From a virus: a DNA stretch of 48,059 bases. Position 1 is the first letter of the stretch. Each line of letters opens with the position of its first letter. Made by a program: the position numbers and the translations under genes. Positions 6,520-45,960 of the stretch are shown one piece after another. The DNA lies in IMG/VR virus record IMGVR_UViG_3300026097_000033, positions 1 through 48,059 of that record, one strand, 5' to 3'. Below the pieces are notes generated by a model that saw only the letters and a list, made by a program, of their open reading frames with translations, did not search any database and was not told the DNA's origin.

Positions 6520-6532
6520 CAAGGACATTTAA

Positions 6533-6712
6533 ATGGGTAATTTATTTCAAGCTTTACGACAGGCAATGTACGAATATAACAGACTAGATAAATTAAGTCC
6601 CCGTAGGAAACAAACTATCATTAATACGTACAGTCGTTTTGAGAATGATTACGAATTTGTAGATCAATTGATCCCTATTGAAGGGCAAGACGAAGAAGTC
6701 GAAAAGGAATAA
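6533..6712 (+). CDS. Small charged protein of 59 residues
   Basis: ATG at 6533 is preceded by AAGGACATTTAA, a good ribosome site, and the frame runs 59 residues to a TAA two bases before the next gene. The sequence is a mixed basic and acidic helix (ALRQAMYEYNRLDKLSPRRK, then YSRFENDYEFVDQL) ending in an acidic tail (GQDEEVEKE). No family is recognised. It fills the gap between two virion genes exactly, in the same direction, so it is likely a real late gene, perhaps an assembly partner of the neighbours. Confidence 0.7.
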   Translation: MGNLFQALRQAMYEYNRLDKLSPRRKQTIINTYSRFENDYEFVDQLIPIEGQDEEVEKE

Positions 6713-13860: not shown

Positions 13861-14814
13861 TTACCAGCCCCAGTCATCTCCTGCGAGAGCGTCTGAGTTA
13901 TAGTCAGTAACTCTACCCTCAAAGAAGTTCTTGTGGCTGTCCCCCGCAATGATCCAGTCTACCCACGGTAATGGGTTTTCTTTTACTTTCCAGTTACCTT
14001 TGAGACCCAGCTGGATAAGCCGCCGGTCTGCGATGTAACGAATGTATTTTTTAACTTCTTCTGACGTAAGGCCCTCGACAGCACCCAGTTCAAATGCCAG
14101 ATCGATAACCTTATCTTCCAGCTTAACAGCATCACGGAACATCTGATAAATATCCGCCTTAAACTCGTCAGTGACAATCCGAGGGTGTTCTTCACAGAAC
14201 TGCCTAAACAACTGAACCATGCCGTCACAGTGCATTGTTTCATCACGAATACTCCACTCTACAATCTCACACATGCCACGCATCTTACCGTAGCGTTGAT
14301 AATTTAATAGCATAATAAATGCACTGAACAGGGACATACCCTCATTCATAGCAGAACGTGCGACAGCCTTAGCAAGACCTGAAAGGCTATGCACATCAAT
14401 GTCCTGCATAAACTCTACCTTCTCTGCCATCTCTTTGTATTCTAAGAATGCAGAGAATTCTTCCTCCGGGAGGCCCAGCGTATCATTCAACAATGCGTAG
14501 GCTCTCTGATGCACAAACTCTCGATTGGCAAATGAAGTCAGCATTGCCCGGATCTCATTATTCTTAAACTTAGGAATATAATATTCTAAATAGTTTGTAC
14601 CGACAGCCACATCTGACTGAGTAAACAAACGAAGAATCTGTGTGATGTGATTACGTTCTACATCTGTGAGCTTCTTAGACTTCCAGTGTGAGACATCTTC
14701 TTGTAGTGAAGCCTCCCACTCTCCCCAATGGATCTTCTCATGTGAGATGGCTTTCTCAACAGCCCAAGGGTACTTAAACGGCTTATAGGTTACGTTTGGT
14801 TCTAGCAGTGCCAT
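13861..14814 (-). CDS. nrdB: Ribonucleotide reductase class I, beta subunit (R2)
   Basis: This 317-residue protein is the radical-generating subunit that works with NrdA to make deoxyribonucleotides. All six expected metal ligands are visible: D68 (TQSDVAVG), E99 and H102 (REFVHQRAY), E158 (MNEGMSLF), and E192 and H195 (RDETMH). The radical tyrosine is Y106, four residues after H102 as in class Ia enzymes. The C-terminus GDDWGW is the likely peptide that docks to NrdA. The start follows AAGGATAAGTA and shares a TAATG overlap with the upstream small gene. NrdA is encoded just upstream, separated by two small overlapping genes. Phage RNRs support genome replication by recycling host ribonucleotides. 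Confidence 0.95.
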   Translation of the reverse strand: MALLEPNVTYKPFKYPWAVEKAISHEKIHWGEWEASLQEDVSHWKSKKLTDVERNHITQILRLFTQSDVAVGTNYLEYYIPKFKNNEIRAMLTSFANREFVHQRAYALLNDTLGLPEEEFSAFLEYKEMAEKVEFMQDIDVHSLSGLAKAVARSAMNEGMSLFSAFIMLLNYQRYGKMRGMCEIVEWSIRDETMHCDGMVQLFRQFCEEHPRIVTDEFKADIYQMFRDAVKLEDKVIDLAFELGAVEGLTSEEVKKYIRYIADRRLIQLGLKGNWKVKENPLPWVDWIIAGDSHKNFFEGRVTDYNSDALAGDDWGW

Positions 14815-15011
14815 TACTTATCCTTTTCTTCTTTTGTTTTAGAGTAAACAGTTTCCAACGCTTCATTGTACAAATGTCGAGCAGTAGCCAGATCTGTCAT
14901 CAATTGTATGATCGCATCGTGTGCGTCGTTTAAGATCCGGGCAAAGTCCGGGTCCATGTCCTTTACTCGCTCTAGTCGTCTAGCAACTTTAATAACATCT
15001 TCATGATTCAT
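14814..15011 (-). CDS. Small helical protein between nrdA and nrdB
   Basis: This 65-residue protein starts MNHEDVIKVARRLERVKD and is predicted helical throughout, ending in a Lys/Glu tail (SKTKEEKDK). Its start overlaps the end of the preceding small gene by 11 bases and its stop overlaps the nrdB start (TAATG). That makes it translationally coupled within the RNR operon. No domain is recognised. A role tied to nucleotide metabolism is possible from position only. Confidence 0.65.
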   Translation of the reverse strand: MNHEDVIKVARRLERVKDMDPDFARILNDAHDAIIQLMTDLATARHLYNEALETVYSKTKEEKDK

Positions 15012-15150
15012 TTGAAGTCTCCCGCAGTTTAAGTTCTAACTTAATTGCTTTGTATTCTAACGCCCTGCCCTTTTCCATCAGGCCACGGGAATACGCACGT
15101 AACATTTTTAGGTAAGTCTTTTGCAATTTGCGTGTGACTTTTTCGTACAT
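15001..15150 (-). CDS. Small basic helical protein (49 residues) after nrdA
   Basis: ATG at 15148-15150 opens 49 residues ending in a TGA that overlaps the next start. It begins two bases after the nrdA stop, with GAGGGG upstream serving as the ribosome site inside the nrdA end. The sequence (TRKLQKTYLKMLRAYSRGLM, then KGRALEYKAIKLELKLRE) is basic and helical. No family is recognised. Perfect fit into the operon with overlap on the downstream side supports a real gene. Confidence 0.6.
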   Translation of the reverse strand: MYEKVTRKLQKTYLKMLRAYSRGLMEKGRALEYKAIKLELKLRETSNES

Positions 15151-15152
15151 AA

Positions 15153-16925
15153 TTACCCCTCACACGCTATGCAAACTTCTTCAGCTTCATCCGATACAAA
15201 ATCTTTCAATGCATCTCTTTTGATCTTTGTACCGACTTTATCTGCAGATACTCCAGCGTTCGTCCTGTAGTAATACAGACCTTTCAATCCAAGCTTCCAA
15301 GCAAGGATATGTACGTCCTTTACGAATCCTTTATCTTCACCTGAAGGGAAGAATAAGTTCACAGACTGTCCTTGACAGATAAACTCCTGTCTCTTAGCCG
15401 CGTGTTCAACAACCATGGCTTGGTCCAATTCAAAGGCTGTTCTGAAAACTTCCTTCTCATCCTCCGTGAGGAAATCCAGATGCTGGACAGAGCCTTCGTT
15501 CGCAATAATGTTGTTCCACGTTTCTTGGTTGTTCTTCGCATACTTCTTTAACACCTTCACTAATTGCTTGTTCTTTGTAAGGTGAGAACCTGCCCTAGTA
15601 CGATGGGTGTAAGCATTAGACTTAATAGGCTCAATAGAAGCACTACAATTACAGATAACGGAATTGTTAGCGTTGGGTGCAATCGCAATAAGGTGTGCAT
15701 TACGCATACCCGTACCTTCCATATCAGGAGCCTCACCCCGTTCTCTGGCCAGTTCCCTGCTTTCCTCAACAGCCTTTTCTTTAATGTGCTTAAAGAGTTT
15801 GATGTTTTCACTGGTAGCTCTCCAGTCACTCCACGGGATACCTTTCTGTTGTAGATACCCGTGGAATCCCATAGCACCTAAGCCGATTGATCTTTCTCTT
15901 TGAGCAGAGAATACTGCTTTTCCAAGTTCTGGTGGAGCATGTCTGATAAAGAATTCAAGTACGTTGTCGAGGAGTCGGACCAAGTCTTGAACCATTCGGG
16001 TGTCTCGCCACTCATCGTATCGCTCAAGGTTGACTGAGGAAAGACAGCAGACGGCTGTTCGATTTTCGTCTGTCGGGAGATGGATCTCGTTACAGAGATT
16101 AGACCCCATAACACGTAATCCAAGCTTTCTTTGAGTTTCTGGCAACTTACGGTTGGCTGTGTCGATAAAGTTGATGTAAGGAACGCCAGTTCTTGACCGA
16201 GTTTTAAGTATTGCTTGCCACAACTTTCTAGCGTCGACGATATCTCTGCAAGATCCGTCATGAGGGTCTCTAAGTTCCCACTGTCTGTCTTCTTCGTTTT
16301 CATAATTCAATAACTCCATGAAATCATCTGTTACATTAACTGCAGGAAATGAATTAGGACACTTCCTTGCATCGTCCCCTCCAGTGGGAAGTCTTAAATT
16401 AATAAACTCCTCAATGTCCGGGTGGCTTATGTCCATATAAGCCGCATAGCTACCACGGCGGGTAGTACCTTGATGGAATGCCAGAATGTCTGAATCCATC
16501 GATTTTAAGAACGGGATAGCTCCCGGAGATTTATTTGAGACAGCACGGACATCTGACCAATGACCTCCGATTCCTCCTCCACTTACAGAGAGAAACGCAG
16601 TCTCAGATTTGTGCTGTACAATGCCACGTACCGTATCTGGTACATAGGATAAGAAACAACTGATCGGTAGCCCACGTACTGCCTCACCTTCTTTAGGCGC
16701 ATTACTTAGTACAGGGCTAGAAAACATGAACCACTGTTTAGATACATAATCATAAATTCTCTGTGCAAAATCTATGTCACCTTCACAGTATGCTACTGCC
16801 GCCCGAGCAAACGCCTCTTGAGGAGAGTTTTCTTCAGGACGCATGTAGAATTCACGCATCAATTTATAGCCCTGTTCTGTAAGCAACTCATCCCGCGACA
16901 GGTCTATTTTTATTTGATCAGCCAT
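15153..16925 (-). CDS. nrdA: Ribonucleotide reductase class I, alpha subunit (R1), lacking ATP cone
   Basis: This 590-residue catalytic subunit reduces ribonucleotides. Visible signatures are the first active-site cysteine in LPISCFLSYVP, the thiyl-radical cysteine in GSNLCNEI, the partner cysteine region CCLSSVNLE, and the C-terminal redox pair CIACEG. LIAIAPNANNS corresponds to the PTA(T)NS-type loop. It is shorter than the roughly 760 residues of E. coli NrdA and starts almost directly in the catalytic barrel, so the N-terminal ATP-cone that lets dATP switch the enzyme off is absent. The start follows AAGGAACAAACGA. It lies in the leftward operon with nrdB close downstream. No glutaredoxin or thioredoxin gene was seen nearby, so host reductants are presumably used. 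Confidence 0.95.
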   Translation of the reverse strand: MADQIKIDLSRDELLTEQGYKLMREFYMRPEENSPQEAFARAAVAYCEGDIDFAQRIYDYVSKQWFMFSSPVLSNAPKEGEAVRGLPISCFLSYVPDTVRGIVQHKSETAFLSVSGGGIGGHWSDVRAVSNKSPGAIPFLKSMDSDILAFHQGTTRRGSYAAYMDISHPDIEEFINLRLPTGGDDARKCPNSFPAVNVTDDFMELLNYENEEDRQWELRDPHDGSCRDIVDARKLWQAILKTRSRTGVPYINFIDTANRKLPETQRKLGLRVMGSNLCNEIHLPTDENRTAVCCLSSVNLERYDEWRDTRMVQDLVRLLDNVLEFFIRHAPPELGKAVFSAQRERSIGLGAMGFHGYLQQKGIPWSDWRATSENIKLFKHIKEKAVEESRELARERGEAPDMEGTGMRNAHLIAIAPNANNSVICNCSASIEPIKSNAYTHRTRAGSHLTKNKQLVKVLKKYAKNNQETWNNIIANEGSVQHLDFLTEDEKEVFRTAFELDQAMVVEHAAKRQEFICQGQSVNLFFPSGEDKGFVKDVHILAWKLGLKGLYYYRTNAGVSADKVGTKIKRDALKDFVSDEAEEVCIACEG

Positions 16926-19106: not shown

Positions 19107-19960
19107 TATTCATTCACAAGAACTGCGTCTTCGCCAATAAAGGCATCAACAACATCCGCTTCTTCTGCAGATGCACTACGTGCCTCGATAGACTCGTTGT
19201 ACTTCGCCCGGACAGAATCGTTGACATTCTTAATCAACGTAAGAATATGCTTCATTGTCTCGACGTTGTCAGGTGACAACTCTGCAGTCTTCTTGAAGTC
19301 AGGCTTGAAGTGGGAGGTGAAATAGATCACACCACCATTCCGCTTACGCTCATTAAACAATGTGCTAGTCACATTCTGGAAAGGAACATTCTGAGCAGAC
19401 GATGGCTCAATGACTTCCTTCGTAAAGTTCATGAACGAAGCACCTTTCGTACGGAACAGGCAAGGAGTCTCTACAACTTCACGCTCTTCACCTTCAGCGT
19501 TTGTTCCCTTGTAAGAAACTAGGCCGTAGATGTAACGGAAGCATGTAATCCCTTGATACTTGCTCTTCTCTTTATCATCCAATGCGTGGAAGTCTTTTCC
19601 TGCAGGACGACCACAGCGCAAGGTACCTGTTTCATCAATGGCTTCATCGCCTACACGGTGAATGATTGTACGATTCACAGTCTTCTGCTCATCCGCATCG
19701 TAGTGCAGATACTGCATGAAATCCCCTAACGCACGGAACTGAACTTCTTTAGCATAGACTTTTTCAATGTCCTTGCCATCCAGTACAAAGGTACCTTTCT
19801 TCAGTTCATTCCCATCGTCATCCTCTTCTTGGTAGTTTGTACGCAGAAGTGGAAGGAGATCTGACTGCTCAGTCTGAGCCTGCTGGGAGGCACCACCTGA
19901 CATCAGGGCTGTAAGTTGACCGACATCTAAGTCGGATACATTTGCTGGTACGTTACTCAT
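19106..19960 (-). CDS. Replication-associated protein, candidate ssDNA-binding protein
   Basis: This 284-residue protein uses the ATG at 19958-19960, ten bases after AAGGA; an ATG nine bases earlier sits too close to that site. It overlaps the 3' end of the polymerase gene. The core (about 60-230) contains beta-type stretches (YQGITCFRYIYGLVSYKG, NGGVIYFTSHFKPD). The C-terminus is acidic (SAEEADVVDAFIGEDAVL), a feature of T7 gp2.5 and bacterial SSB that recruits partners. No classical SSB is otherwise visible among the replication genes. The ssDNA-binding assignment is inference from tail and position, between DNA polymerase and exonuclease. Confidence 0.55.
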   Translation of the reverse strand: MSNVPANVSDLDVGQLTALMSGGASQQAQTEQSDLLPLLRTNYQEEDDDGNELKKGTFVLDGKDIEKVYAKEVQFRALGDFMQYLHYDADEQKTVNRTIIHRVGDEAIDETGTLRCGRPAGKDFHALDDKEKSKYQGITCFRYIYGLVSYKGTNAEGEEREVVETPCLFRTKGASFMNFTKEVIEPSSAQNVPFQNVTSTLFNERKRNGGVIYFTSHFKPDFKKTAELSPDNVETMKHILTLIKNVNDSVRAKYNESIEARSASAEEADVVDAFIGEDAVLVNE

Positions 19961-22100
19961 AAATAACATTTCCTTCTAACCAATTTTCGCCACTCTTTAT
20001 TTCAATGGAGAGAGGCATAACCATCTTATAATCATAACGCAGATAGACTTCATCCGCAACCTTTTCCATGGCTTCCACCAGAATATCTTTACAGACCTCC
20101 TCTTCACCCGGGTACACATCCATCACAATACTGTCATGTACAGTCAGTACACACAGCGACTTAACCTGTTGATCTCTCATAGCTTTTTCGACACGTATGC
20201 AAGCAAGCGGTACAATATCTGCCGTAGCAAATGATTGCACAGGGTAATTTACAATCTGTGTTGCATAGCTTACACGACCGGAACTGCTTCGCTCTACGCC
20301 ATCCCAGTGCAGTTGTCTGCCTGAAGGAAGCGTGACAGTCCCATCTTTCAATACTTGATTCTTTAGCTGGGTGTGCCATGCATCTAACCCGGAGTAGATA
20401 TTGAAATACTGATTGAAATAGTTTCGTACGTGATCCGGCTCTCCTGCACCACTGCCTCCATACAACGGAGCAAAGGTGTAGGCTTTAGCCTTCTGCCGTT
20501 CATCTTTCGTAATCTCACTGGAAGGCTTCTGATTAATAATGGATGCAGTTTGTTTGTGTACATCTTTACCTGTTGTGACATCCTCAAAGATCTGAGCGTC
20601 ACCAGACAACTCTCCTGCCACCCTAAACTCTAGACCTGAAAAGTCTGCTTCCATAATCTTGCCATCAGTAAATCTACTGATCACTGCACGGCGTACTGGG
20701 AATGTACCGCCTCGTGGCTGATTCTGGAAGTTAGGATCAGAAGAAGACAGCCGACCAGTCGCTGTACGGCATTGATTAAAGGTTGTGTGCAGTAGGCCAT
20801 CGCTTCGTGTATTGCGTTGTATGCCCTTCACAAAGGATGTCAGGTAGGTAGATACTGCATTGAGTCTCTGCATCGATTCTAGGAAGGTTACAGCGTCTTC
20901 ATTGCGATTCCTGCGAGCTTGGGCAAGGAGTTTACTGACTACATCTTTTGACGTTACAAAACCATTAGCAGAAACATCCTGTACAGTTGTCGGATTAAGA
21001 TTGAACCCTCCCACTTCAGGAGTAGGCTGGTAGATAATCCCTAAGCCTTTACAGTCACTGCACTTAGGCGGACGCTTAAACGGCGTACCATCTTTCTTTA
21101 GTTTATTTAAAATACCTTTGCCGCTACATCCTGTGCATACTTTAGTTACACATTTCTTTACGGGGGAGGTCATGTCATCAATCGTATCTTTAAACTCGAC
21201 TGCGGACATGCGAGGTCTGTACAAAGGCTTGCCTTGTGGGTTGAGGCCAATGTTGAATCGATCCTTCCACTGGTGCTTGTCCTTTACTCTGCGTGAGTAA
21301 ATAACTTCAGACAGTTGGGCAGGGCTGTTCAGGTTCACCTCGACATCACCCATTACTCTGCGGCAGATATCGTTCATTGTTTTCTGCAAATGTTGCTGTT
21401 CTTCTAGATACTCTTTCTCAATCTTTTCAAGGACTTGCAGATCAATGTTAATGCCGTTTGTCTCCATTGTAAACAGCACACCCATCATCTCATTCATCAT
21501 GATACGTGTCTTAACTAATCCTTGTAAGTCTTTGTTATCATAGTCATTTAACTGTGAGAATAAGACCTCAGCACAGGACACACAGTCGGATGCACCATAC
21601 TCCTGTACAACGGACATGGGCATGGCTTCATAGCCTGTCCCTTTGGAGAATGCTTCAGAGACTAACTCAGACTTTTTAAGATGCACATCTCGACGCTTGG
21701 CAGTCTGATCAAGAGACAGGCTGATCTTCTGACCACGGGCTAAGATGTATTCGCCAATCATTGTGCAGTAGTATCCTTTATTCCGCACGTTGAAGTTAGC
21801 CTGTTCTAACCAAAGTAAATCATACTTCAGGTTATGCCCGACCAGCACATCTGCCTCATCGATCATAGCTTGAATCGTTTGGAAAGATTCCATGCCATTA
21901 TATTCTGGAGGCAATTCATTATGTGCAAAAAATTTGTACACAACATCTTCTGGATCTAGATTATCGTACGCCCAGACTGCCCCCACAGACACAAGATAAT
22001 TGTTTTCATTAAAAGGACTGCCATCGATACGGCCATCCCCATCACGCTGGACTGTATTCTCAACGTCCACAATCAAATACTTTTGACCATCAATCAACAT
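19953..22100 (-). CDS. polA: DNA polymerase family A with 3'-5' exonuclease and DnaJ-type zinc insert
   Basis: The protein has 715 residues from the ATG at 22098-22100, which follows AGGATCTCTCGCT. The exonuclease domain shows D12 and E14 (VDVENT), N90-x3-D94 (GHNLKYD) and Y168-x3-D172 (EYGASD). Residues 315-357 hold a DnaJ central-domain-like zinc finger: C322-TGC-SGKG and C347-SDC-KGLG. Polymerase motif A is ADFSGLEF (D486), motif B is RQKAKAYTFAPLYGG (R535, K539, F543, Y547) and motif C is TVHDS (H655, D656). The position equal to E. coli F762 is Phe. It copies the phage genome and overlaps the helicase gene upstream. The DnaJ-type insert is the known hallmark of HMO-2011-type phages. Confidence 0.95.
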   Translation of the reverse strand: MLIDGQKYLIVDVENTVQRDGDGRIDGSPFNENNYLVSVGAVWAYDNLDPEDVVYKFFAHNELPPEYNGMESFQTIQAMIDEADVLVGHNLKYDLLWLEQANFNVRNKGYYCTMIGEYILARGQKISLSLDQTAKRRDVHLKKSELVSEAFSKGTGYEAMPMSVVQEYGASDCVSCAEVLFSQLNDYDNKDLQGLVKTRIMMNEMMGVLFTMETNGINIDLQVLEKIEKEYLEEQQHLQKTMNDICRRVMGDVEVNLNSPAQLSEVIYSRRVKDKHQWKDRFNIGLNPQGKPLYRPRMSAVEFKDTIDDMTSPVKKCVTKVCTGCSGKGILNKLKKDGTPFKRPPKCSDCKGLGIIYQPTPEVGGFNLNPTTVQDVSANGFVTSKDVVSKLLAQARRNRNEDAVTFLESMQRLNAVSTYLTSFVKGIQRNTRSDGLLHTTFNQCRTATGRLSSSDPNFQNQPRGGTFPVRRAVISRFTDGKIMEADFSGLEFRVAGELSGDAQIFEDVTTGKDVHKQTASIINQKPSSEITKDERQKAKAYTFAPLYGGSGAGEPDHVRNYFNQYFNIYSGLDAWHTQLKNQVLKDGTVTLPSGRQLHWDGVERSSSGRVSYATQIVNYPVQSFATADIVPLACIRVEKAMRDQQVKSLCVLTVHDSIVMDVYPGEEEVCKDILVEAMEKVADEVYLRYDYKMVMPLSIEIKSGENWLEGNVIYE

Positions 22101-23313
22101 AGCGAGAGATCCTAGGTTCAATTAAACACACGACAGTTCCATGCCACCCAGTAATTTTATTCTTACCAACAGTCAGATGTCGAGTAAAGTCTGGCTCTTC
22201 GTCCATGCCAACAGCATGACAGCCAATGCCAATGATCAGGTCAGCTTCCGCAAACTTTCCTGTCTTGCTTCCTTCCATCTCTGTAGGATTGACGACAGTC
22301 TTCCCTTGGGCTTCTGCTGAGGCTTGGCTAACGGCAATAAAGGCGAGATTGTGACGCTTGGCAATTTCTCTTGCTTGCGTGTATATCTCTCGTAGTTTCT
22401 CGTCGGTCCTCTGGAAGTTCCCGTTAACAGCCACTTTATCCAGCTGATCCACAACCAGAATATCAGGAGAATGTCTTTCACAGTAAGCATCGATCTCATC
22501 AATAGAGACTCCCTGTGCATCAAACATATTGACTTTATCTTTAATTTTTTCCCATTCTGTCTTAGCAAATTCCGAATCATGTTCTATCTCTCCACGTGAC
22601 ATGCCAGTCCACGCTGAAATTGCACGAAGCATTGTTCTCTTGGCTGGCTCTTCATTGACCATTGTGTGTACAGAAGCACCCTGTTCAGCAAAGCCTCCCG
22701 GTCCGTAACAGAAAGATACGTGGGAGGCAGTCTTACCCGTCTCAGGTCTAGCGAATATGATGCACAGTTCACCTGCGCTGATACCAGATACACGATTACG
22801 TAATGCACGTAAATTGAACAGCCACCGGCTATCGTCTGCAGTGTCGTCTAATAGAGTGTCCAGTTCAGTTGTACAGTGAGTGATCTGTTCTTGGTAGGAG
22901 ATCGCATCCCCTACCTTCTCTATCAGTTTCTTTAAGGGGAGTAGATCTGTGATCTCCCCATCTTCCATACGCAAGCCAATGTTTGCAATGTCGTTACCTA
23001 CTTTACGTTTGTAAACTTCTGCAAGGACTTCTTCTGCAATTTCTGGGGTCAGAGAATTTCTAGAGACAATCTCCCTGAGGAGCATCTTCACATTCTCTTT
23101 CTTTACTTTATTTAAGGCAGGATGTTTTGCATCGTACAACTCTTCAACATCTTGGACAGTCAGGTCACCCTCAAACTTTTCATGTGCTTCAACAATCGTA
23201 TTGAATAAAGGTTTAAGGTCTGACCCATCAAATATACTGTAATGGATTCTGTGCTTGTTGTTTAAGTAAAAGTCTTTACTCAACAACAGCTGTAGTAATA
23301 AATCGCTCTTCAT
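22090..23313 (-). CDS. Replicative DNA helicase (DnaB/T7 gp4 helicase-like)
   Basis: This 407-residue protein is read from the ATG at 23311-23313, which has an excellent GGGAGGAACA site; a longer in-frame reading overlaps the upstream membrane-protein gene and is rejected. An N-terminal helical DnaB-like region (1-140, MKSDLLLQLLLSKDF) precedes a RecA fold. Walker A is ARPETGKT (188-195), Walker B is ILVVDQ (285-290), and a sensor-like IAVSQAS and GKNKITG segment follow. It should unwind DNA at the fork with the separate primase at 27.3-28.0 kb. T7 joins both functions in one protein, whereas here they are split and 4 kb apart. It overlaps the polymerase gene by 11 bases. Confidence 0.9.
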   Translation of the reverse strand: MKSDLLLQLLLSKDFYLNNKHRIHYSIFDGSDLKPLFNTIVEAHEKFEGDLTVQDVEELYDAKHPALNKVKKENVKMLLREIVSRNSLTPEIAEEVLAEVYKRKVGNDIANIGLRMEDGEITDLLPLKKLIEKVGDAISYQEQITHCTTELDTLLDDTADDSRWLFNLRALRNRVSGISAGELCIIFARPETGKTASHVSFCYGPGGFAEQGASVHTMVNEEPAKRTMLRAISAWTGMSRGEIEHDSEFAKTEWEKIKDKVNMFDAQGVSIDEIDAYCERHSPDILVVDQLDKVAVNGNFQRTDEKLREIYTQAREIAKRHNLAFIAVSQASAEAQGKTVVNPTEMEGSKTGKFAEADLIIGIGCHAVGMDEEPDFTRHLTVGKNKITGWHGTVVCLIEPRISRYVD

Positions 23314-37044: not shown

Positions 37045-39156
37045 ATGGCTATTGTAGATAAACCAGAATTTGATCAAGACGAGACTCTGATCCTAGAGGA
37101 TTCAGATGATCAACAAGAAGACGCAATTTACGGTGGCTTTATTGACATCGTTCGTGAGAAATACAACCGGTCTAAAGATAAGCGGCTTTCCGACGAAGAG
37201 CGTTGGCTAAGAGCCTATAAGAATTACAGAGGGGTGTACGATGACACGACGAAGTTCACCGAGACTGAGCGTTCGCAAGTGTTCATTAAGGTCACGAAGA
37301 CGAAAGTTCTCGCGGCGTACAGTCAAATTATCGATGTTCTCTTTGCCGGTAACAAGTTTCCAATCGGTATTGAGCCGACCCAAATTCCTGAAGGCATTAA
37401 AGACACAGTTCATGTTGATGCGGCGGTACCAGACCAACTCCAAGAAATCTACGACGAGCTAAACGTAGGCTATGCAGGGGATAGTACAGAGATCCCTGAA
37501 GGTGCTGTCCGTCCGGGGGACATTAACCCGATCAAAGAACAGGTTGCAGGCATTGAAGAAGACCTTAAAGCAGGTCCCGGCAACACACCCACTGCGGCAA
37601 TCTATGAGCCAGCCCTAGAAGCGGCTAAGTTCATGGAGAAGAAGATCCACGATCAACTCGATGAGTCAGATGCAAGCAAGCATTTACGCTTTGCGGCCTT
37701 TGAGATGGCCCTGTTTGGTACTGGTATTATCAAAGGACCTTTTGCTCACGACGTAGAATACCCGAACTGGGATGAAAACGGGGCATACACTCCGATCATG
37801 CGGACGATGCCTCGCATTGAAGCGGTGTCTATCTGGAACTTCTACCCTGATTCTGACGCAACCAACATGACCGATTCGGAGTATGTCGTCTACCGGCACA
37901 AGATGTCCCGTACTGACATGCGAGAATTGAAGAATCGTCCCTTCTTCCGGGACACTGCAGTTGAGCGGTCTATCGAACAAGGCCCTAATTACAACAATGA
38001 ATACTGGGAAGATGTCATTGACGACACAAGTTACCGTCAAACTGTCTATCGCTGGGAAGTTTTAGAGTATTGGGGCGTTATTGACCGAGAAACTGCCGAA
38101 GATGCAGGTCTGAAGCTCACAAAAGAGCTTAAAAAGTTCGATCAGATCCAAATTAACACTTGGATTTGCGGAGATAACATCTTACGGCTTGTTTTGAACC
38201 CATTTAAGCCTACTCGCATCCCATTTTACGCTACACCGTACGAATTAAACCCATATTCCTTCTTTGGAGTCGGTGTTGGCGAGAATATGGAAGATACACA
38301 GACTTTAATGAACGGATTTATGCGGATGGCAGTCGATAATGCCATGTTATCCGGTAATTTGATCTTTGAAGTGGATGAAACCTCTTTAGTACCGGGTCAG
38401 GACCTCTCTGTCTACCCCGGAAAAGTCTTTCGTCGGCAGGGTGGCGCACCCGGTCAAGCATTATTCTCTACAAAATATCAGAATGTATCCAGTGAGAATA
38501 TGATGTTGTTCGACAAATCGCGTCAGCTTGCTGATGAATCTACTGGTATCCCGTCGTTCTCTCACGGACAGACAGGTGTCACTGGCGTTGGCCGTACAGC
38601 CTCTGGTATTTCCATGCTGATGGGTGCCGCCGCTCAGAACATTAAGACGGTGGTCAAAAATATTGACGACTATCTTCTTGCTCCTTTGGGCAAGGCTATG
38701 TTCGCCTTCAACATGCAGTTTGACTACGACAAGAAAGCGAAAGGAGATCTCTCTGTCAGGGCACAGGGTACAGAATCTCTCATGCGGAATGAGATCCGCT
38801 CACAGCGTCTGATGCAAATGATGCAGTTAGGAGCAAACCCAGCGTTGGCCCCAATGATTAAGTTTGATTACATCATTCGGGAGATTGCCGCTTCACTCGA
38901 CTTGGACGAAGACAAGATTATCAACGATCCAAGAGAAGCCGCAGTGCAAGCAATGCTCATGAAAGAATACCAAGCGGAGATGCAAGCACAGCAACCCCAG
39001 CAAACACCACAGCAGGGACAAGAGGGCACACCTACCCCAGATAATCCTGCAGGTGTAGGGGCGGGTAACATCGGTCCGGGTAATGCACCTGAACCCGGTG
39101 CCCCCGGCTTTTCAGGTAATGCGGGAACACCACCGACTGAGGAACCCCCAGCATAA
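37045..39156 (+). CDS. Portal protein
   Basis: This 703-residue protein lies after terminase and before the scaffold and capsid genes. It has an acidic N-terminus and a ring-forming core with VFIKVTKTKVLAAYSQIIDV, an FYATPYELNPYSFFGVGVGE segment, and HGQTGVTGVGRTASGISMLM in the stem and crown region. A Gln/Pro/Gly-rich tail (AQQPQQTPQQGQEG) follows. The order and these segments match portal proteins of HMO-2011-like and related marine podoviruses. It forms the dodecameric channel for DNA packaging and exit. Start after GGATGTATAA. Confidence 0.85.
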   Translation: MAIVDKPEFDQDETLILEDSDDQQEDAIYGGFIDIVREKYNRSKDKRLSDEERWLRAYKNYRGVYDDTTKFTETERSQVFIKVTKTKVLAAYSQIIDVLFAGNKFPIGIEPTQIPEGIKDTVHVDAAVPDQLQEIYDELNVGYAGDSTEIPEGAVRPGDINPIKEQVAGIEEDLKAGPGNTPTAAIYEPALEAAKFMEKKIHDQLDESDASKHLRFAAFEMALFGTGIIKGPFAHDVEYPNWDENGAYTPIMRTMPRIEAVSIWNFYPDSDATNMTDSEYVVYRHKMSRTDMRELKNRPFFRDTAVERSIEQGPNYNNEYWEDVIDDTSYRQTVYRWEVLEYWGVIDRETAEDAGLKLTKELKKFDQIQINTWICGDNILRLVLNPFKPTRIPFYATPYELNPYSFFGVGVGENMEDTQTLMNGFMRMAVDNAMLSGNLIFEVDETSLVPGQDLSVYPGKVFRRQGGAPGQALFSTKYQNVSSENMMLFDKSRQLADESTGIPSFSHGQTGVTGVGRTASGISMLMGAAAQNIKTVVKNIDDYLLAPLGKAMFAFNMQFDYDKKAKGDLSVRAQGTESLMRNEIRSQRLMQMMQLGANPALAPMIKFDYIIREIAASLDLDEDKIINDPREAAVQAMLMKEYQAEMQAQQPQQTPQQGQEGTPTPDNPAGVGAGNIGPGNAPEPGAPGFSGNAGTPPTEEPPA

Positions 39157-39377
39157 TGTCCCCTGATATCGCAAAGAAACTTTTACCCGTAGTTAATGTC
39201 GAGAAACACAAAAATGCTTTATGGGCATATGCCGTAGAGCGCATTGGCTATTTACATCGCCAGTTAGAGATTGCTACTTCGTACGAAGAAGTCAAAGAGC
39301 TTCAAGGTGGCCTGAAAGAAATGCGTAAGTTCTTGACGTTAAAAGAAGAAGCCCACCAGAAAGCCAAGGAGACATAA
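39156..39377 (+). CDS. Small helical protein after portal
   Basis: This 73-residue protein starts by TAATG overlap with the portal stop and ends directly before the next GTG. Two helices are predicted: VNVEKHKNALWAYAVERIGY and SYEEVKELQGGLKEMRKFLT, giving a probable helical hairpin. No family is recognised. It may be an assembly factor for the portal or a partner of the polyvalent protein downstream. Confidence 0.65.
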   Translation: MSPDIAKKLLPVVNVEKHKNALWAYAVERIGYLHRQLEIATSYEEVKELQGGLKEMRKFLTLKEEAHQKAKET

Positions 39378-42300
39378 GTGGCCGTTAAAGGTTTAGGGAA
39401 AGCATTAGGTGCAGTAAAAGACGAATTTTCAGATAGCGTTGAAAGTTTGGTTAATGCTTTTGGCATTCGTCGGGGACGACCTGAAGGACCTGAATATGTA
39501 ACTCCTCCAGACCCTTCCCCTGAAGAATTAATGGAAGCACAAAAAGAAGCTTCCAAGCCTGTCTCTGAGGGAGGTTTAGGACTACCTCCTGAGAATACCC
39601 CTTTGGATCGTGCCCAAGCGCAGGGCTACAAAATACCTGTATATCATGGTGCTGAAGACGATACGTTACGCTCTGTCGATCCGATGTACGGCAAAGATCC
39701 TAGAACTTCAGGCCGAGGATTCTTTGGAGCTATGGACCCTCCTGAAGTAGCAGAAACATATGCTACACCTAGGTCTGGAGAAAAAGGTGTTGTTTTTCCT
39801 TTATTGATGCGAGACGACGCATTAGCTTCTGTAAAAGACGCTTCTTCACCCGCAAAAATTGGCCGTGTAGATTTTGGAGGCCAGAATTTTGATGATGCTG
39901 AAGATGCTATTCTTACTTTGCCAGACGGTACTGAATTAACTGTAGCAGAGGACTATCGTCTAGGTAGTCTGTCCACCGATGAACTAGTGGACATTGCTAA
40001 AGAGTATGACTTAGACGGCATTGAAGCAATTAATATTATCGACAGAGGCCCTAGAACATACCCCGGAACTAGAGAAGCTTTACAAGAAGCTGATTATGGC
40101 ACTTCTGGTGGTACTGAGGCTATTACTTTTAGCGAGGGACTGCTTCGGGCACCTAACGCCGCATTTAATCCTGCCAAACGAGGTTCTCCAAGCTTAACCG
40201 CCGGTCTATCTGGTACGGCAATTGCCCTAGGACTTGTTGCAACCCCTGAAGAAGCCGAAGCCGCCTACATCCCCCTTAAAGCATTTGCCGAAGGCTCAGA
40301 AGCCGCTCAGGCATTATTCAAGAAAGCACAGAAGCGTATTGCTGAAGGTGCAGATACTCGTCCTAACGGTGAACTGTACAATGAGATGGGAGTGTACCGC
40401 TCTGAGGATGGAGACTTTAAAGTAGACGTTGCAGAACTTCGTGCAAGAGACGTTGAAAAAATGCAGGGACTGCAACAGTTCGCTGAAGATATCGATTTTT
40501 ATTTATCTACCAATATCAGACGAAAAAAGAAGCTTGAGTATCCAATTACTCGCTACCTGCCCGAAGACTCTCCTATATTTGAAAACTTTCCTGAGTTAAA
40601 AGAAGTTAAAGTTAGCCTTCGCCCCCAACCTAAAAATTCTAATTATTTAGGTGAGTATAATCCAAATACAAAAGAAGTCATTGTTTACGCAGACAATGAT
40701 CCTACAATCGACTATTCTCAATTTGAAGACGAACGAGCTAAAAAAATTCTCAACTCGTTTAACACGCTCTTTCACGAATTCCAGCACTACATTCAAGATG
40801 TAAAAAAAGCGGCCAATACGGGCTACAACACAGTTGCGTCGCTAGTAGCTACTAGAGGATTTAGAGAAGACTACAAAGACGCTGTTGACGCTTTAAAAAC
40901 TATGCAACCCGGAGACATAGGATACGATCAGTTTAAAAATAAAGTTGATTCTGTTTTTGGAATGGTGCAAAAGTCCCTTTCTGCAAAACCAAAGTCTAAA
41001 GATGCACCTTCCCCTAGAGACGAGTTTCTTGCCGCTGATTTTGATGAAAAGCTAAAGAAGGTTGAAGATGTATTTAACACCTTTGAAAAGGGAAGTACAG
41101 ATACAGATGAACTTATACAGTCTAGCCAGTTAGGCCACAACATTTACATCCGAGAGTTAGGTGAAGCTGAAGCTCGTTCTACCGGACTTAAAGCATTAAT
41201 ACCTGAAGGATCTGACCGGAAGGCTATCGGGGTTTTTTATCCTACGTCTGACGGAAAACAGATTGCTCTCAGAGCAGAAGATGTTTCTTTATATAATCAA
41301 TTAGACCCTTCTCATGTTCTAGTCCGGGGCGTTCCTGCCTACGAAGATTTTACTGACATGGGAAAACTATACTTCCCAGAATCTGTTATGGGCCAAGAAG
41401 CATTAGAGCCTGAAATTGTTAAACAAGCTAAGAAAAGAAGCGGAGATGGTGGAAAGGGTACTGCCGCTGTCGTAGCAGGAGGTACAGCCGCAGGGTTAGC
41501 ATCTCCTCCCTCAGAGGCTTTTGTTGAGGGAGTAGGGGAAGCTACCGGGCTATTTGAAGACGGCTCTCCTACGCCTTCTCTGTTCGACGTAGAGGGTGTT
41601 TCTGATGAGTTAGGTATCACCAATACATTTTTGCTTGACTTATTAGTTCCACGGACTAAACCGTATGATTTGATCTCCAATATTCCCGGTGTGGGCGAAA
41701 CCATGATGGCCGCAGATGTCGCTCAAGGTTTGGGTAGCCCAGATGCAGAAACTCCAGATGAATTCACAGATACTCCAAGAGATGTCGCAGGTATGCGTCA
41801 AGGTGGCGGTATCGAAACAGAAGCAGGACTAGAAATGGAAGAAAAAAATCCGAATAAGCCAATCCCTAAAAAGGCAGACATCAACAAGGATGGAGAGATC
41901 CAAGGATGGGAAAAGGCACGACACGAAGCCATCCAAGAGACCGAAAAGAAAACTCAGATGGCGATGGGAGGCATGATGGGCATGATGGCAGATCCGTTTG
42001 CACCGTTTCAAGTCACCGTAGACATCGACGAAGAGTCAGGCAACGAAGTGCCTGCAGGTTCTAAAGAAGAAGAAGTCCGTGATGACATTCCTGCTATGTT
42101 ATCTGAAGGTGAATACGTCGTTCCTGCTGATGTTGTTCGCTACCACGGCTTAAAAACTTTTGAAGAATTACGGTGCGAAGCAAAGCATGCGTTAGGCTTG
42201 ATGGCTATGCATGATCGCATTTCCTATGTAGATGATGATACGAAAGAGCCTGTCGATTACGACATTGAAGAGAAAGACCTTCCTAAAGTTGAAAAGGCTG

Positions 42301-43343
42301 AAGTAGAAGTAGTCGAGGCGGCAGAAGGTACTGATGTACAGCCTGCAACTGACCCAACAACTTTCTACCAACTCCAGTATAAGACTGACCCTGTAACTGG
42401 CCAAGTGCGCATCGTTTATGTCGATCCAATGACTGGCCAAGAAGTTAAAGAAGAAGAATACGAACAGGAACGTGCTTCTCGCTTTGCTCCCCAGACTGTA
42501 CTTCAACGTGAAGGTTTGATGGGTACCGAAGAGGAAGAGGCTGAGGAAGAAGAATGCCCTGAAGGATACGTTAAAGATCCTGAAACAGGGGTGTGCACTC
42601 CTCAGACAATTATTGAAGGTAGACAGTTTGTTGATACAGGCGGTGATGGCCCCGACAATGACGAAGGTCCTAGCACGGACCCTAGTCAGGGCATGTCTCA
42701 AGACGAAATAAATGCCGCTTTGGGTGCGGCAGTCGGATACGATCCAATTTCTGCTCCTGAAATTCCGGGTACATTAGGTTTGGTAGCTAAAGCTATAGAA
42801 TTTGGTGTGAACGGAATTAAACAATACAACGCAATGAATGCAGTCCGTAAAGGTGAAAACTTAGGAGTAACTCCTTCAGGTGAGTATGGAGGATGGCGTA
42901 GCAACTTAGGTCCAAATGCAACAGCCGCTGTAGCCGCAACTGAAAATGCGGCGGCGGATGTCGCCTCTGGCAAAACCGGCCTTCAAGGCTCTCAGTTTGG
43001 ATCTGTTGCTGAAGCAAATACCGTTGCCAATAGTGGCTGGGGTTCCGACGCACACTTTGATGCTATTGATAATCAGTTCGGCGGACTTTCTGAAACTCGT
43101 GGCGGCGGTACAGCCACTCCTGAAACTGGACCTACATCTGGTACTTCGCCCGGAAGACCCGGCGGAGAAGCAGGAGAACGTGATGGATCTGACTCTACCG
43201 GATCAGAATCTACTGGGGGAAGTAATCCCGCAGGAGACGTAGACAGCGGTCCGGGCAGTGGCTTTGGGTATGCTAAAGGCGGTATGCCAACTCGCAAAGT
43301 TAAGCCCCGTGTGGCAATGATGAACTATAAAGGAAACAAATAA
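39378..43343 (+). CDS. Polyvalent virion protein: ART-like domain, HExxH metallopeptidase-like domain, GGM/acidic tail
   Basis: This 1321-residue protein starts at GTG 39378. The regions in order are as follows. Residues 84-270 are ADP-ribosyltransferase-like (IPVYHGAEDD, GRGFFGAMDPPEVAETYA, then FNPAKRGSPSLTAGLSG), a pattern of ART-PolyVal domains. At 455-605 there is a zinc-peptidase-like core, LFHEFQHYIQ (H466, E467, H470) and GEAEAR (595-600). A Gly/Ala hydrophobic piece lies at 695-710. An EF-hand-like loop DINKDGEIQGWE is at 834-845, followed by MAMGGMMGMM at 861. DIPAMLSEGEYVVPADVV occupies 903-920. Acidic and Gly-rich tails end in YAKGGMPTRKVK. It may be packaged and delivered with the DNA to act on host targets. 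Catalysis is inferred from motifs. Confidence 0.7.
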   Translation: MAVKGLGKALGAVKDEFSDSVESLVNAFGIRRGRPEGPEYVTPPDPSPEELMEAQKEASKPVSEGGLGLPPENTPLDRAQAQGYKIPVYHGAEDDTLRSVDPMYGKDPRTSGRGFFGAMDPPEVAETYATPRSGEKGVVFPLLMRDDALASVKDASSPAKIGRVDFGGQNFDDAEDAILTLPDGTELTVAEDYRLGSLSTDELVDIAKEYDLDGIEAINIIDRGPRTYPGTREALQEADYGTSGGTEAITFSEGLLRAPNAAFNPAKRGSPSLTAGLSGTAIALGLVATPEEAEAAYIPLKAFAEGSEAAQALFKKAQKRIAEGADTRPNGELYNEMGVYRSEDGDFKVDVAELRARDVEKMQGLQQFAEDIDFYLSTNIRRKKKLEYPITRYLPEDSPIFENFPELKEVKVSLRPQPKNSNYLGEYNPNTKEVIVYADNDPTIDYSQFEDERAKKILNSFNTLFHEFQHYIQDVKKAANTGYNTVASLVATRGFREDYKDAVDALKTMQPGDIGYDQFKNKVDSVFGMVQKSLSAKPKSKDAPSPRDEFLAADFDEKLKKVEDVFNTFEKGSTDTDELIQSSQLGHNIYIRELGEAEARSTGLKALIPEGSDRKAIGVFYPTSDGKQIALRAEDVSLYNQLDPSHVLVRGVPAYEDFTDMGKLYFPESVMGQEALEPEIVKQAKKRSGDGGKGTAAVVAGGTAAGLASPPSEAFVEGVGEATGLFEDGSPTPSLFDVEGVSDELGITNTFLLDLLVPRTKPYDLISNIPGVGETMMAADVAQGLGSPDAETPDEFTDTPRDVAGMRQGGGIETEAGLEMEEKNPNKPIPKKADINKDGEIQGWEKARHEAIQETEKKTQMAMGGMMGMMADPFAPFQVTVDIDEESGNEVPAGSKEEEVRDDIPAMLSEGEYVVPADVVRYHGLKTFEELRCEAKHALGLMAMHDRISYVDDDTKEPVDYDIEEKDLPKVEKAEVEVVEAAEGTDVQPATDPTTFYQLQYKTDPVTGQVRIVYVDPMTGQEVKEEEYEQERASRFAPQTVLQREGLMGTEEEEAEEEECPEGYVKDPETGVCTPQTIIEGRQFVDTGGDGPDNDEGPSTDPSQGMSQDEINAALGAAVGYDPISAPEIPGTLGLVAKAIEFGVNGIKQYNAMNAVRKGENLGVTPSGEYGGWRSNLGPNATAAVAATENAAADVASGKTGLQGSQFGSVAEANTVANSGWGSDAHFDAIDNQFGGLSETRGGGTATPETGPTSGTSPGRPGGEAGERDGSDSTGSESTGGSNPAGDVDSGPGSGFGYAKGGMPTRKVKPRVAMMNYKGNK

Positions 43344-43344
43344 C

Positions 43345-43776
43345 ATGGCACGTACTGAAGAACAAATGAAAAGTGAAATGACCGGCATGGCCGCACCTGA
43401 ACCTGATATGCCAATGGAAGGTGGTATGGATGAGCCTAGTTCATTAACTGTAGATTCTATGGTCTCTAACTTCAATGCAATGGACCCCCAATTACAGGAA
43501 GCGATTAAGCCTCTGTTTTCTGGTGACGGTGTGATTGCAATGAACGAGCTACTGGGTGAACCCCTCGTGTCAGGTTTCGTTTCTCAGATTGATATGGATT
43601 CTCCAGAAGAGCCTGCCGCTCCAGCACCTGCACCTGCAACTCCTGCTACACCACAAGAAGGCATGATGGCCCCTGAAGCTACACCGATGGCAAAGGGCGG
43701 AATGTTGAATTCTCAAATGCAGGATATGGTCCGTCAAGGCATGTCCCCACAACAGATTCGCAATAAGTTGCGATAA
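43345..43776 (+). CDS. Hypothetical Met/Pro-rich protein with KGGM motif
   Basis: This 143-residue protein after AAAGGAAACAAATAAC has an acidic, methionine-rich start (MKSEMTGMAAPEPDMPMEGG). A helical middle (SMVSNFNAMDPQLQEAIKPL) follows, then a Pro/Ala linker (APAPAPATPATP). It ends with MAKGGMLNSQMQDMVRQGMS and QQIRNKLR. The KGGM plus helical end resembles the tail of the preceding 1321-residue protein and the tail of the small protein at 6.7 kb. Probably a structural or assembly protein. No known family. Confidence 0.6.
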   Translation: MARTEEQMKSEMTGMAAPEPDMPMEGGMDEPSSLTVDSMVSNFNAMDPQLQEAIKPLFSGDGVIAMNELLGEPLVSGFVSQIDMDSPEEPAAPAPAPATPATPQEGMMAPEATPMAKGGMLNSQMQDMVRQGMSPQQIRNKLR

Positions 43777-43843: not shown

Positions 43844-44629
43844 ATGGCTAAATATAAGCGTAGAAATGACGATGATGTCGAAACTAATGCAACCGCTGAA
43901 AACTCAAATGCACAAGCTACTGCAGAAACTTCAGGATCTGAAGAAGAAACTTTTAAAAAGCGTTATGGCGATTTACGCCGCTATATGCAACAAACTGTCG
44001 AAGCTAAAGACAGGGAACTAGAAGATTTAAAACGGCTCGTCCAAGAGAAAGAAAAGGAAGAGTTTACCCTTCCAACATCGGAAGAAGAGATTGAAGAGTG
44101 GGCCAGTAAGTACCCACAGGTTGCTAAGATTGTCGATTCAATTGCACAGAAACGTGCCCGTGAAGCTTCACATGAAGTTGAGCAGAGCATGTCAGATCTC
44201 CGCAAGATGAAGACACAGCTAGAACGAGAGAAAGCAGAGCATGAGCTAAAACGCCTGCACCCTGACTTTGATCAAATCCGTTCTACAAAGCAATTCCACG
44301 ATTGGGTTGGTCAACAGCCATCCTATTTACAGGATGCCCTGTATAAAAATGAGAATGACGCCATTGCCGCCGCACGGGCGATTGACCTGTACAAAGCGGA
44401 CATGGGAATGATTGCTGAAAAGCGTTCTGATTCTGAATTGAAGAAAGAAGCCGCTAAAGCAGTTAAGAAAGGATCTTCCTCTTCACCCTCAGCACGGCCT
44501 GCTGGAGAGTGGAGTGAAAGCCGTGTTGCTTCGTTGAAACCACATGAGTATGAGAAGCATGAGGAAGCAATTATTGAAGCAATGCAAGCTGGTAAGTTCG
44601 TGTACGACATGACAGCCGGTGCAAGATAA
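43844..44629 (+). CDS. Scaffolding protein
   Basis: This 261-residue highly charged helical protein lies directly before the major capsid gene, the standard place for a scaffold. It has a disordered N-terminus (DDDVETNATAENSNAQATAE) and a long coiled coil (RRYMQQTVEAKDRELEDLKR, EVEQSMSDLRKMKTQLEREK). A WVGQQPSYLQDALYKNENDA segment follows, with a C-terminal basic and aromatic helix that could bind the capsid. Scaffolds guide prohead assembly and leave before packaging. Start after AAAAGGATAACCCA. Confidence 0.8.
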   Translation: MAKYKRRNDDDVETNATAENSNAQATAETSGSEEETFKKRYGDLRRYMQQTVEAKDRELEDLKRLVQEKEKEEFTLPTSEEEIEEWASKYPQVAKIVDSIAQKRAREASHEVEQSMSDLRKMKTQLEREKAEHELKRLHPDFDQIRSTKQFHDWVGQQPSYLQDALYKNENDAIAAARAIDLYKADMGMIAEKRSDSELKKEAAKAVKKGSSSSPSARPAGEWSESRVASLKPHEYEKHEEAIIEAMQAGKFVYDMTAGAR

Positions 44630-44883: not shown

Positions 44884-45960
44884 ATGGCATTTCAAACCGC
44901 CGCTGGTTACGGGAATCTACCAAACGGTAATTTTAGTCCTGTAATTTACAGCCAAAAAGTTCAGAAGGCTTTCCGTAAGTCTTCAATCGTAGAAGCAGTC
45001 ACTAACTCAGACTACTTCGGTGAGATCGCTAACTATGGCGACTCAGTTCGTATCATCAAAGAGCCAGAAATCACAGTTAAAGAATATGCTCGTGGCGTAC
45101 AGATTACACCACAAGATATCGACGACGAAGATTTCACGCTTGTTGTTGATCAAGCTCACTACTTTGCTTTCAAGATGGACGACATCGAAGAAGCACACAG
45201 CCACGTAAACTTCATGGATCTGGCAACAGATCGTGCAGGTTATCGTCTCCGTGACCAGTATGACCAAGAAGTTCTTGGCTATCTGTCTGGTTACACTCAG
45301 TCTGCGATCAACGCCGCCGCTGATACTGCAAACACTACAGTATCTGGTTCTAAGGCTGTTGACACTGCTGGTTCTGACGAACTGCTTGCTACTATGAAGT
45401 TGTTCAAAGCTGACTTCGGTAACATCACTACATCTGATACAGATGACGACGATTACGCAATTCCTGTTGCGGCACGTTTGCCGGGTGCGTCTACGCTCCC
45501 AACAGCAACTGCTTCACCTTTGCAGGTTATTGCTCGTATGGCTCGTTTGTTGGATCAGCAGTTTGTTGATACTGAAGGACGTTGGTTGGTCATTGACCCA
45601 GTATTCATGGAAATCTTGAAGGACGAAGATTCGCGTCTTCTCAATTCAGACTTCGGTGGTGCAGGTCTCCAGAATGGCTTGACCGTGAACAATCTGCATG
45701 GCTTCCGTGTATATGTTTCTAACAACCTGCCTAAGTTGGGTACTGGTGCTGGTACTACAGGTACTGCAAACCAGAAAGCCAATGCTGGTGTGATTGTTGC
45801 TGGTCATGACTCTGCCGTTGCTACTGCACAGCAGATCTCTAAGACTGAAACATACCGTGATCCAGATTCATTCGCTGACATCGTCCGTGGTATGAACCTG
45901 TATGGCCGTAAGATTCTTCGTCCAGAAGCTGTCGCTACTGCCCTTTACAACGCCGCTTAA
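44884..45960 (+). CDS. Major capsid protein (HK97-fold)
   Basis: This 358-residue protein follows the scaffold and has a very strong ribosome site (AGGAGGTAACTACC). The N-terminus (MAFQTAAGYGNLPNGNFSPV) leads into YSQKVQKAFRKSSIVEAVTN, typical of the N-arm and E-loop area of podovirus capsids. IIKEPEITVKEYARG, FTLVVDQAHYFAFKMDDIEE and YRLRDQYDQEVLGYLSGY follow. WLVIDPVFMEILKDEDSRLL and the C-terminal YRDPDSFADIVRGMNLYGRK are consistent with the HK97 A and P domains. It forms the icosahedral shell. Confidence 0.88.
   Translation: MAFQTAAGYGNLPNGNFSPVIYSQKVQKAFRKSSIVEAVTNSDYFGEIANYGDSVRIIKEPEITVKEYARGVQITPQDIDDEDFTLVVDQAHYFAFKMDDIEEAHSHVNFMDLATDRAGYRLRDQYDQEVLGYLSGYTQSAINAAADTANTTVSGSKAVDTAGSDELLATMKLFKADFGNITTSDTDDDDYAIPVAARLPGASTLPTATASPLQVIARMARLLDQQFVDTEGRWLVIDPVFMEILKDEDSRLLNSDFGGAGLQNGLTVNNLHGFRVYVSNNLPKLGTGAGTTGTANQKANAGVIVAGHDSAVATAQQISKTETYRDPDSFADIVRGMNLYGRKILRPEAVATALYNAA

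Follow-up and report, generated by a model that had tools for sequence, protein, structure and literature searches.

The 48,059-nt stretch of DNA analysed here (the window; positions 1 to 48,059 of the IMG/VR virus record IMGVR_UViG_3300026097_000033) comes from an HMO-2011-type phage, with which it shares TerL (64.5% identity to HMO-2011), portal, coat and gene order. Between its portal and scaffold-position genes lies a gene for a protein of 1321 residues, P0001, in which an ADP-ribosyltransferase (ART) domain and a predicted metallopeptidase domain precede a conserved core. In HMO-2011-type phages this portal-adjacent gene consists of the conserved core joined to interchangeable N-terminal modules and constitutes a hypervariable cargo slot, a wider feature missed by an earlier prediction made from the window sequence alone (the original prediction). 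The slot protein is probably packaged in the virion and ejected as a carrier of effectors, and the gene would then be the cargo slot of a short-tailed phage.

The ART and predicted metallopeptidase domains

Residues 61–282 of P0001 can be firmly assigned, from profile comparisons and structure prediction, to the H-Y-D ARTs of the ART-PolyVal (PF18760)/Tox-ART-HYD2 family, with a predicted active site. First, a profile of ART relatives built without window-type sequences gives this region a score of 116 bits. Second, 125 ART relatives were found in IMG/VR, and 23 of 26 aligned relatives match PF18760 (best E 7e-16); the Pfam match of the window itself lies in the right region at an E value of 0.23, below the cut-off. 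Third, the AlphaFold2 model of the domain (pLDDT 74, pTM 0.72) matched a viral structure library in Foldseek with a best E value of 7.5e-11 and a named PolyVal ART entry with 1.8e-6, in agreement with the ART fold anticipated by the original prediction. The top 50 PDB matches of this model comprised 48 PARPs, one PE-like toxin and one acetyltransferase, none of them individually significant. Scans of the whole protein against Pfam, PHROGs and NCBIfam gave no significant match, PDB sequence-profile searches with the ART and peptidase domains returned chance matches only, and a GTDB genome scan using the ART alignment yielded no confirmed relative.

The H-Y-D pattern has been described for the ARTs of polyvalent proteins (PMC5512222), and H90, Y128 and D222 are assigned to it because their conservation (Table 1) fits that pattern. 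Matches of a second ART profile, derived from the slot of relative L006, to residues 271–297 proved to be an artefact of a shared linker present in the profile. Alt-type ARTs carry the catalytic residues R-S-E. An Alt-type enzyme was rejected on its active site, and the comparison with Alt that the original prediction had drawn does not hold at the level of the family. The proposed delivery of an ART together with the DNA recalls T4 Alt, but the slot protein belongs to another ART clade and no sequence relation to Alt was found.

The region that follows is predicted, with fair support from sequence comparison, to be a zincin-like metallopeptidase of polyvalent proteins. Relatives are encoded at 21 IMG/VR loci, and in the 13 aligned sequences HEFQH is invariant, including the residues H466, E467 and H470 singled out by the original prediction, and GE.EAR is near-invariant. 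An hhalign comparison with four HExQH/LPD23-type peptidases of other slots gave a probability of 95.8 and an E value of 7e-9, and a profile of such slot peptidases matches the window with an E value of 1e-5. Helices are predicted at both HEFQH and GEAEAR, the second with low confidence. P0001 has the architecture of a polyvalent protein, with two unrelated enzymatic domains in one polypeptide adjoining phage late genes; the profiles and the conservation of the predicted active sites support the combination of ART and HExxH peptidase proposed originally.

It is most improbable that the added domains are inactive as enzymes and serve as spacers that fill out the structure. The third catalytic position does vary in some ART relatives, but H90, Y128 and the HEFQH and GEAEAR motifs are retained amid divergence elsewhere, and the modules are replaced in other slots by further enzyme families, not by filler.

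The cargo slot and the exchange of its modules

The slot protein differs greatly in length among cultured phages, from 377 aa in CRP-235 and 438 aa in CRP-603 to 762 aa in HMO-2011, 1292 aa in CRP-3 and 1395 aa in CRP-9, all five annotated as hypothetical. In CRP-738 the cargo (835 aa) and the core (383 aa) are encoded by separate genes, the cargo gene lying upstream, and a core motif of the EEVRDDIPAMLSEGEYVVPADVVRYHG type is present in every one of these slots. The proteins of CRP-235 and CRP-603 are essentially the core alone, which bears out the earlier suggestion that the enzymatic domains form a block inserted in an otherwise shorter protein. Across 74 contigs with a portal and a core start, the distance from the portal stop to the core ranges from 50 to 1690 codons; cargo is absent in 17 of them and amounts to at least 300 codons in 47. 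The standard deviation of this spacing is 400 codons, compared to 28 for scaffold to coat and 37 for TerL to portal in the same contigs.

The cargo families recognized by Pfam or profile include a SleB-type hydrolase, CHAP-like proteins, a methyltransferase, DUF7178, LPD23-linked peptidases and DUF6973-like proteins, together with several other HExxH types and three types of ART. The ART of L006 has the pattern ITIYRAV / VTLSKTYA / NEFGY, which we take to be R-S-E; that of L010 matches the H-Y-D profile with an E value of 1.6e-5.

Recombination swaps modules between phages with near-identical head genes. The portal proteins of the window and L004 are 99.6% identical and L004 lacks the ART; their DNA is 95.7% identical up to position 39408, 30 bases into the slot gene, and then shows no match until 40246. 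The portals of L006 and L010 are 99.7% identical, and their DNA continues at 97.6% identity through the first part of the cargo, after which come differing ARTs and then the peptidase again.

In both comparisons the peptidase stays in place and the module in front of it varies, a pattern that fits a role in release. The peptidase may thus release or process cargo rather than modify the host, contrary to the two host-modifying activities of the original prediction. Both processing and effector roles have been proposed for the peptidase of polyvalent proteins (PMC5512222). Since L004, L110 and L118 have the peptidase without an upstream module, and since the cargo of other slots mostly lacks one, we leave it about even whether the enzyme would free the ART from its carrier or attack host proteins.

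The location next to portal and scaffold genes could also be expected of a morphogenetic protease acting in the maturation of scaffold or head proteins, with the ART being incidental, and DdrB of phage P1, a carrier of such a domain, undergoes processing prior to packaging (PMC5512222). However, many slots of this phage group have no HExxH peptidase, and the 17 noted above have no cargo of any kind, with the same portal, scaffold and coat genes; a morphogenetic role is decidedly unlikely.

Several further features of the slots were observed. Other HExxH-like motifs (HEARH, HEGRH, HETGH and HETAH) occur in L012 (4093-6522), in L028 and in the N-terminal parts of L002 and L010, and these proteins apparently represent different peptidase families. 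A cysteine-containing module (CYVATAL / CFLTTAA), likely of the CFI-box type, lies C-terminal to the core in L013 (HMO-2011 gp49), L018, L021, L077 and L104. A methyltransferase gene is found directly 3′ of the slot gene in L022 (CRP-345; 9662-10366) and after the coat gene in CRP-9. Finally, L017 (ctTUS972, MW202573) encodes at 4630-6669, between tail-adaptor and stabilization genes, a protein annotated as "DNA repair protein" that has two ART-PolyVal domains and an L006-like ART.

The conserved core and probable delivery of the cargo

The core motif of the EEVRDDIPAMLSEGEYVVPADVVRYHG type was found in at least 588 IMG/VR stretches; the sample studied further consists of the best 80 of these and leans to close relatives, because those retained are the most similar. 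Outside this phage group, weak matches of the window core were to tape-measure proteins in 41 of 45 records of a spread sample, a count that overstates independence because many of the records are close relatives of one another, though they come from several host genera. A reversed core query gave two unrelated matches. The core profile placed five tape-measure proteins, a hypothetical protein of a Rhizobium phage and gp72 of Pelagibacter phage HTVC115P above the other 419 background open reading frames (ORFs). The common motif, DxIPAMLSxGEYV..A..V...G, occurs in the tape-measure proteins of phages of Gordonia, Arthrobacter, Rhodococcus, Vibrio and Pseudomonas, and HTVC115P gp72 carries its tape-measure form at the equivalent gene position between portal and capsid. 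Tape-measure proteins exit with the DNA. The motif possibly joins the head cargo of short-tailed phages with tape-measure proteins.

A textbook EF-hand-like calcium loop pattern, DINKDGEIQGWE in P0001, was observed in 13 of 88 slot core proteins, in about 11 of them no more than 50 residues upstream of the core. MuF was considered as an identity for the core and rejected, as no match to PF04233 or PF06152 was found in P0001 or in 22 core proteins.

Relatives of the slot carry different enzymes at the same place, and for this reason we consider it a probable slot for proteins co-injected with DNA. The genes around ART relatives in other phages point in the same direction. Among 82 flanking proteins, mostly longer same-strand ones picked before annotation, matches to a single TerL family account for 23 and matches to portal families for 9, 7 and 2, these counts being without a background rate. 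The closest ART from another phage type (L126; 48% identical) is encoded between terminase and portal. Polyvalent and MuF effectors likewise adjoin portal and terminase genes and have been interpreted as packaged (PMC5512222, PMC9503650, PMC5576092).

We infer the following course of packaging, ejection, catalysis and targeting. During assembly, the C-terminal core would direct the slot protein to the portal vertex of the head or its vicinity. The N-terminal modules would be enzymes that enter the cell together with the DNA or before it, and the H-Y-D ART would be expected to act soon after the start of infection by modifying a protein of the host or of a defence system.

A more far-reaching version, to which we give somewhat less than even weight, is that the gene between portal and scaffold is a dedicated delivery vehicle whose tape-measure-like core exports enzymes from a short-tailed head into the host. 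These N-terminal enzymes would be interchangeable and include at least three types of ART, several kinds of metallopeptidase, peptidoglycan hydrolases and a methyltransferase. An abundant group of ocean phages would in that case possess a previously undescribed platform for injecting effectors, with no sequence relationship to MuF. If the changing set of enzymes encoded next to the portal is injected, it would offer an inventory of activities that serve counter-defence and host takeover in marine hosts that have not been cultured.

Several points weigh against the preferred explanation of the slot protein as a whole. First, the link to tape-measure proteins consists of a single short motif of about 30 residues, and unlike the phages of those proteins the slot phages are short-tailed, without a long tail. 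Second, almost every PDB match of the ART model is an ART, yet the best E value is only 0.05. The peptidase model is poor (pLDDT 60.5) and its PDB structure search was not significant, with selecase, IrrE, collagenase and BlaR1 among the top ranks, all at E values of at least 0.68, so that the assignment of this family depends on sequence and not on fold. Third, cargo and core are separate genes in L002, L006, L016 and others, so that covalent fusion to the core is not needed; in many slots the cargo lacks a metallopeptidase, and peptidase-mediated release is therefore not general. Fourth, no virion proteomics for HMO-2011-type phages was found in the literature searched.

Some of these points could favor a protein that is made late and, unpackaged, remains and acts in the infected cell, for example against superinfecting phages or host proteins. 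Packaging is itself inferred, a position in a late operon also yields intracellular proteins, and in some relatives the cargo is encoded apart from the core. Such a role is nevertheless unlikely, considering that the cargo is fused to a core that retains its place between portal and scaffold, that there is an overlap with the portal gene, that the core has a tape-measure-like motif and that ART relatives lie in head modules of unrelated phages. Packaging and ejection remain the preferred explanation.

Known systems and the gene neighbourhood

Compared to known systems, the slot shows both familiar and distinct features. In polyvalent proteins, zincin peptidases are the commonest domain and ARTs the commonest protein-modifying enzymes (PMC5512222). 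Iyer et al. reported in 2017 that both occur together in polyvalent proteins of other phages, and described an ART joined to the N4-like virion RNA polymerase; by their account this polymerase invariably occurs in fusion with metallopeptidase domains (PMC5512222). Like the polyvalent proteins of phages and conjugative elements (PMC5512222), P0001 combines an H-Y-D ART and a predicted zincin-like metallopeptidase in one large protein adjoining late virion genes; here, however, the modules are placed on a conserved core at a fixed gene position and are swapped between near-identical head genes. The novelty claimed originally for the pairing thus fails in general, because the two domains had already been reported together, but could stand for this phage group. 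The literature searched names no ART, peptidase or cargo slot at this position in HMO-2011-type phages, and a slot with a core and swappable modules is apparently undescribed.

The MuF polymorphic toxins of temperate phages (PMC5576092) are also encoded right after the portal and join a head-associated conserved part to swappable toxin domains, some of which are ARTs, and their injection has been proposed. In contrast, the slot protein belongs to short-tailed phages, its cargo is N-terminal rather than C-terminal and may hold several enzymes or sit in a separate gene, and no MuF domain was detected, which excludes membership of that family. On the best reading, the slot protein would work like the MuF-toxin fusions without a MuF domain.

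The slot gene is a single open frame of 1321 codons plus a stop, with a GTG start that has AAGGAG 6 nt on its 5′ side; relative L110 has a GTG start at the equivalent place (VAVKSLGK). The frame and the motifs listed by the original prediction are all present within the head module: IPVYHG at residues 86–91, GRGFFGAMDPPEVAETYA at 113–130, FNPAKRGSPSLTAG at 263–276, HEFQHYIQ at 466–473 and GEAEAR at 595–600. An assembly chimera or artefact was ruled out because a second IMG/VR contig, L001, matches the window over 14,678 nt at 99.99% identity with 2 mismatches. A 73-aa ORF overlaps the portal stop and abuts the slot gene, so that portal, ORF and slot gene appear coupled as a single unit. The positions of all these features are given in Table 1.

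Table 1. Positions in the window of the slot gene, its domains and motifs, and the neighbouring genes
Feature	Position	Strand	Basis
Slot protein P0001, 1321 aa: ART, metallopeptidase, core, variable tail	39378..43343	+	same sequence in contig L001
ART domain, ART-PolyVal/HYD type (aa 61-282)	39558..40223	+	profile, PF18760 in relatives, AlphaFold2 model, Foldseek
Predicted catalytic H90 (YHG)	39645..39647	+	25/26 relatives
Predicted catalytic Y128 (ETYA)	39759..39761	+	24/26 relatives, F in others
Predicted third residue D222 (IIDRGP)	40041..40043	+	D in 18/26, gaps in 4; assigned from alignment
Predicted zincin-like metallopeptidase region (about aa 291-690)	40248..41447	+	alignment; hhalign to LPD23-type polyvalent peptidases
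HEFQH (aa 466-470)	40773..40787	+	invariant in 13 relatives
GEAEAR (aa 595-600), predicted third zinc ligand E596 or E598	41160..41177	+	near-invariant
EF-hand-like loop DINKDGEIQGWE (aa 834-845), directly N-terminal to core	41877..41912	+	pattern match
Conserved core motif region (aa 876-948), EEVRDDIPAMLSEGEYVVPADVVRYHG	42003..42221	+	at least 588 IMG/VR relatives; tape-measure-like
Portal protein	37045..39156	+	PF23899, SU10, phrog_332/1216; 58.9% identity to HMO-2011
73-aa ORF between portal and slot gene, overlaps portal stop	39156..39377	+	small gene at equivalent position in several CRP phages
Scaffold-position protein	43844..44629	+	phrog_13678 (function unknown); 47.4% identity to HMO-2011 gene in that position
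Major capsid protein	44884..45960	+	phrog_267; 72.3% identity to HMO-2011

A further small ORF lies downstream of the slot gene at 43345-43776. Elsewhere in the window, the minus strand encodes NrdA and NrdB of a two-subunit ribonucleotide reductase (13861-16925); the ribonucleotide reductase of HMO-2011 has been placed among the class II viral enzymes (PMC9038755). Also on the minus strand is a family A DNA polymerase (19953-22121) with a weak internal match to a DnaJ-type zinc finger (E 0.0064).

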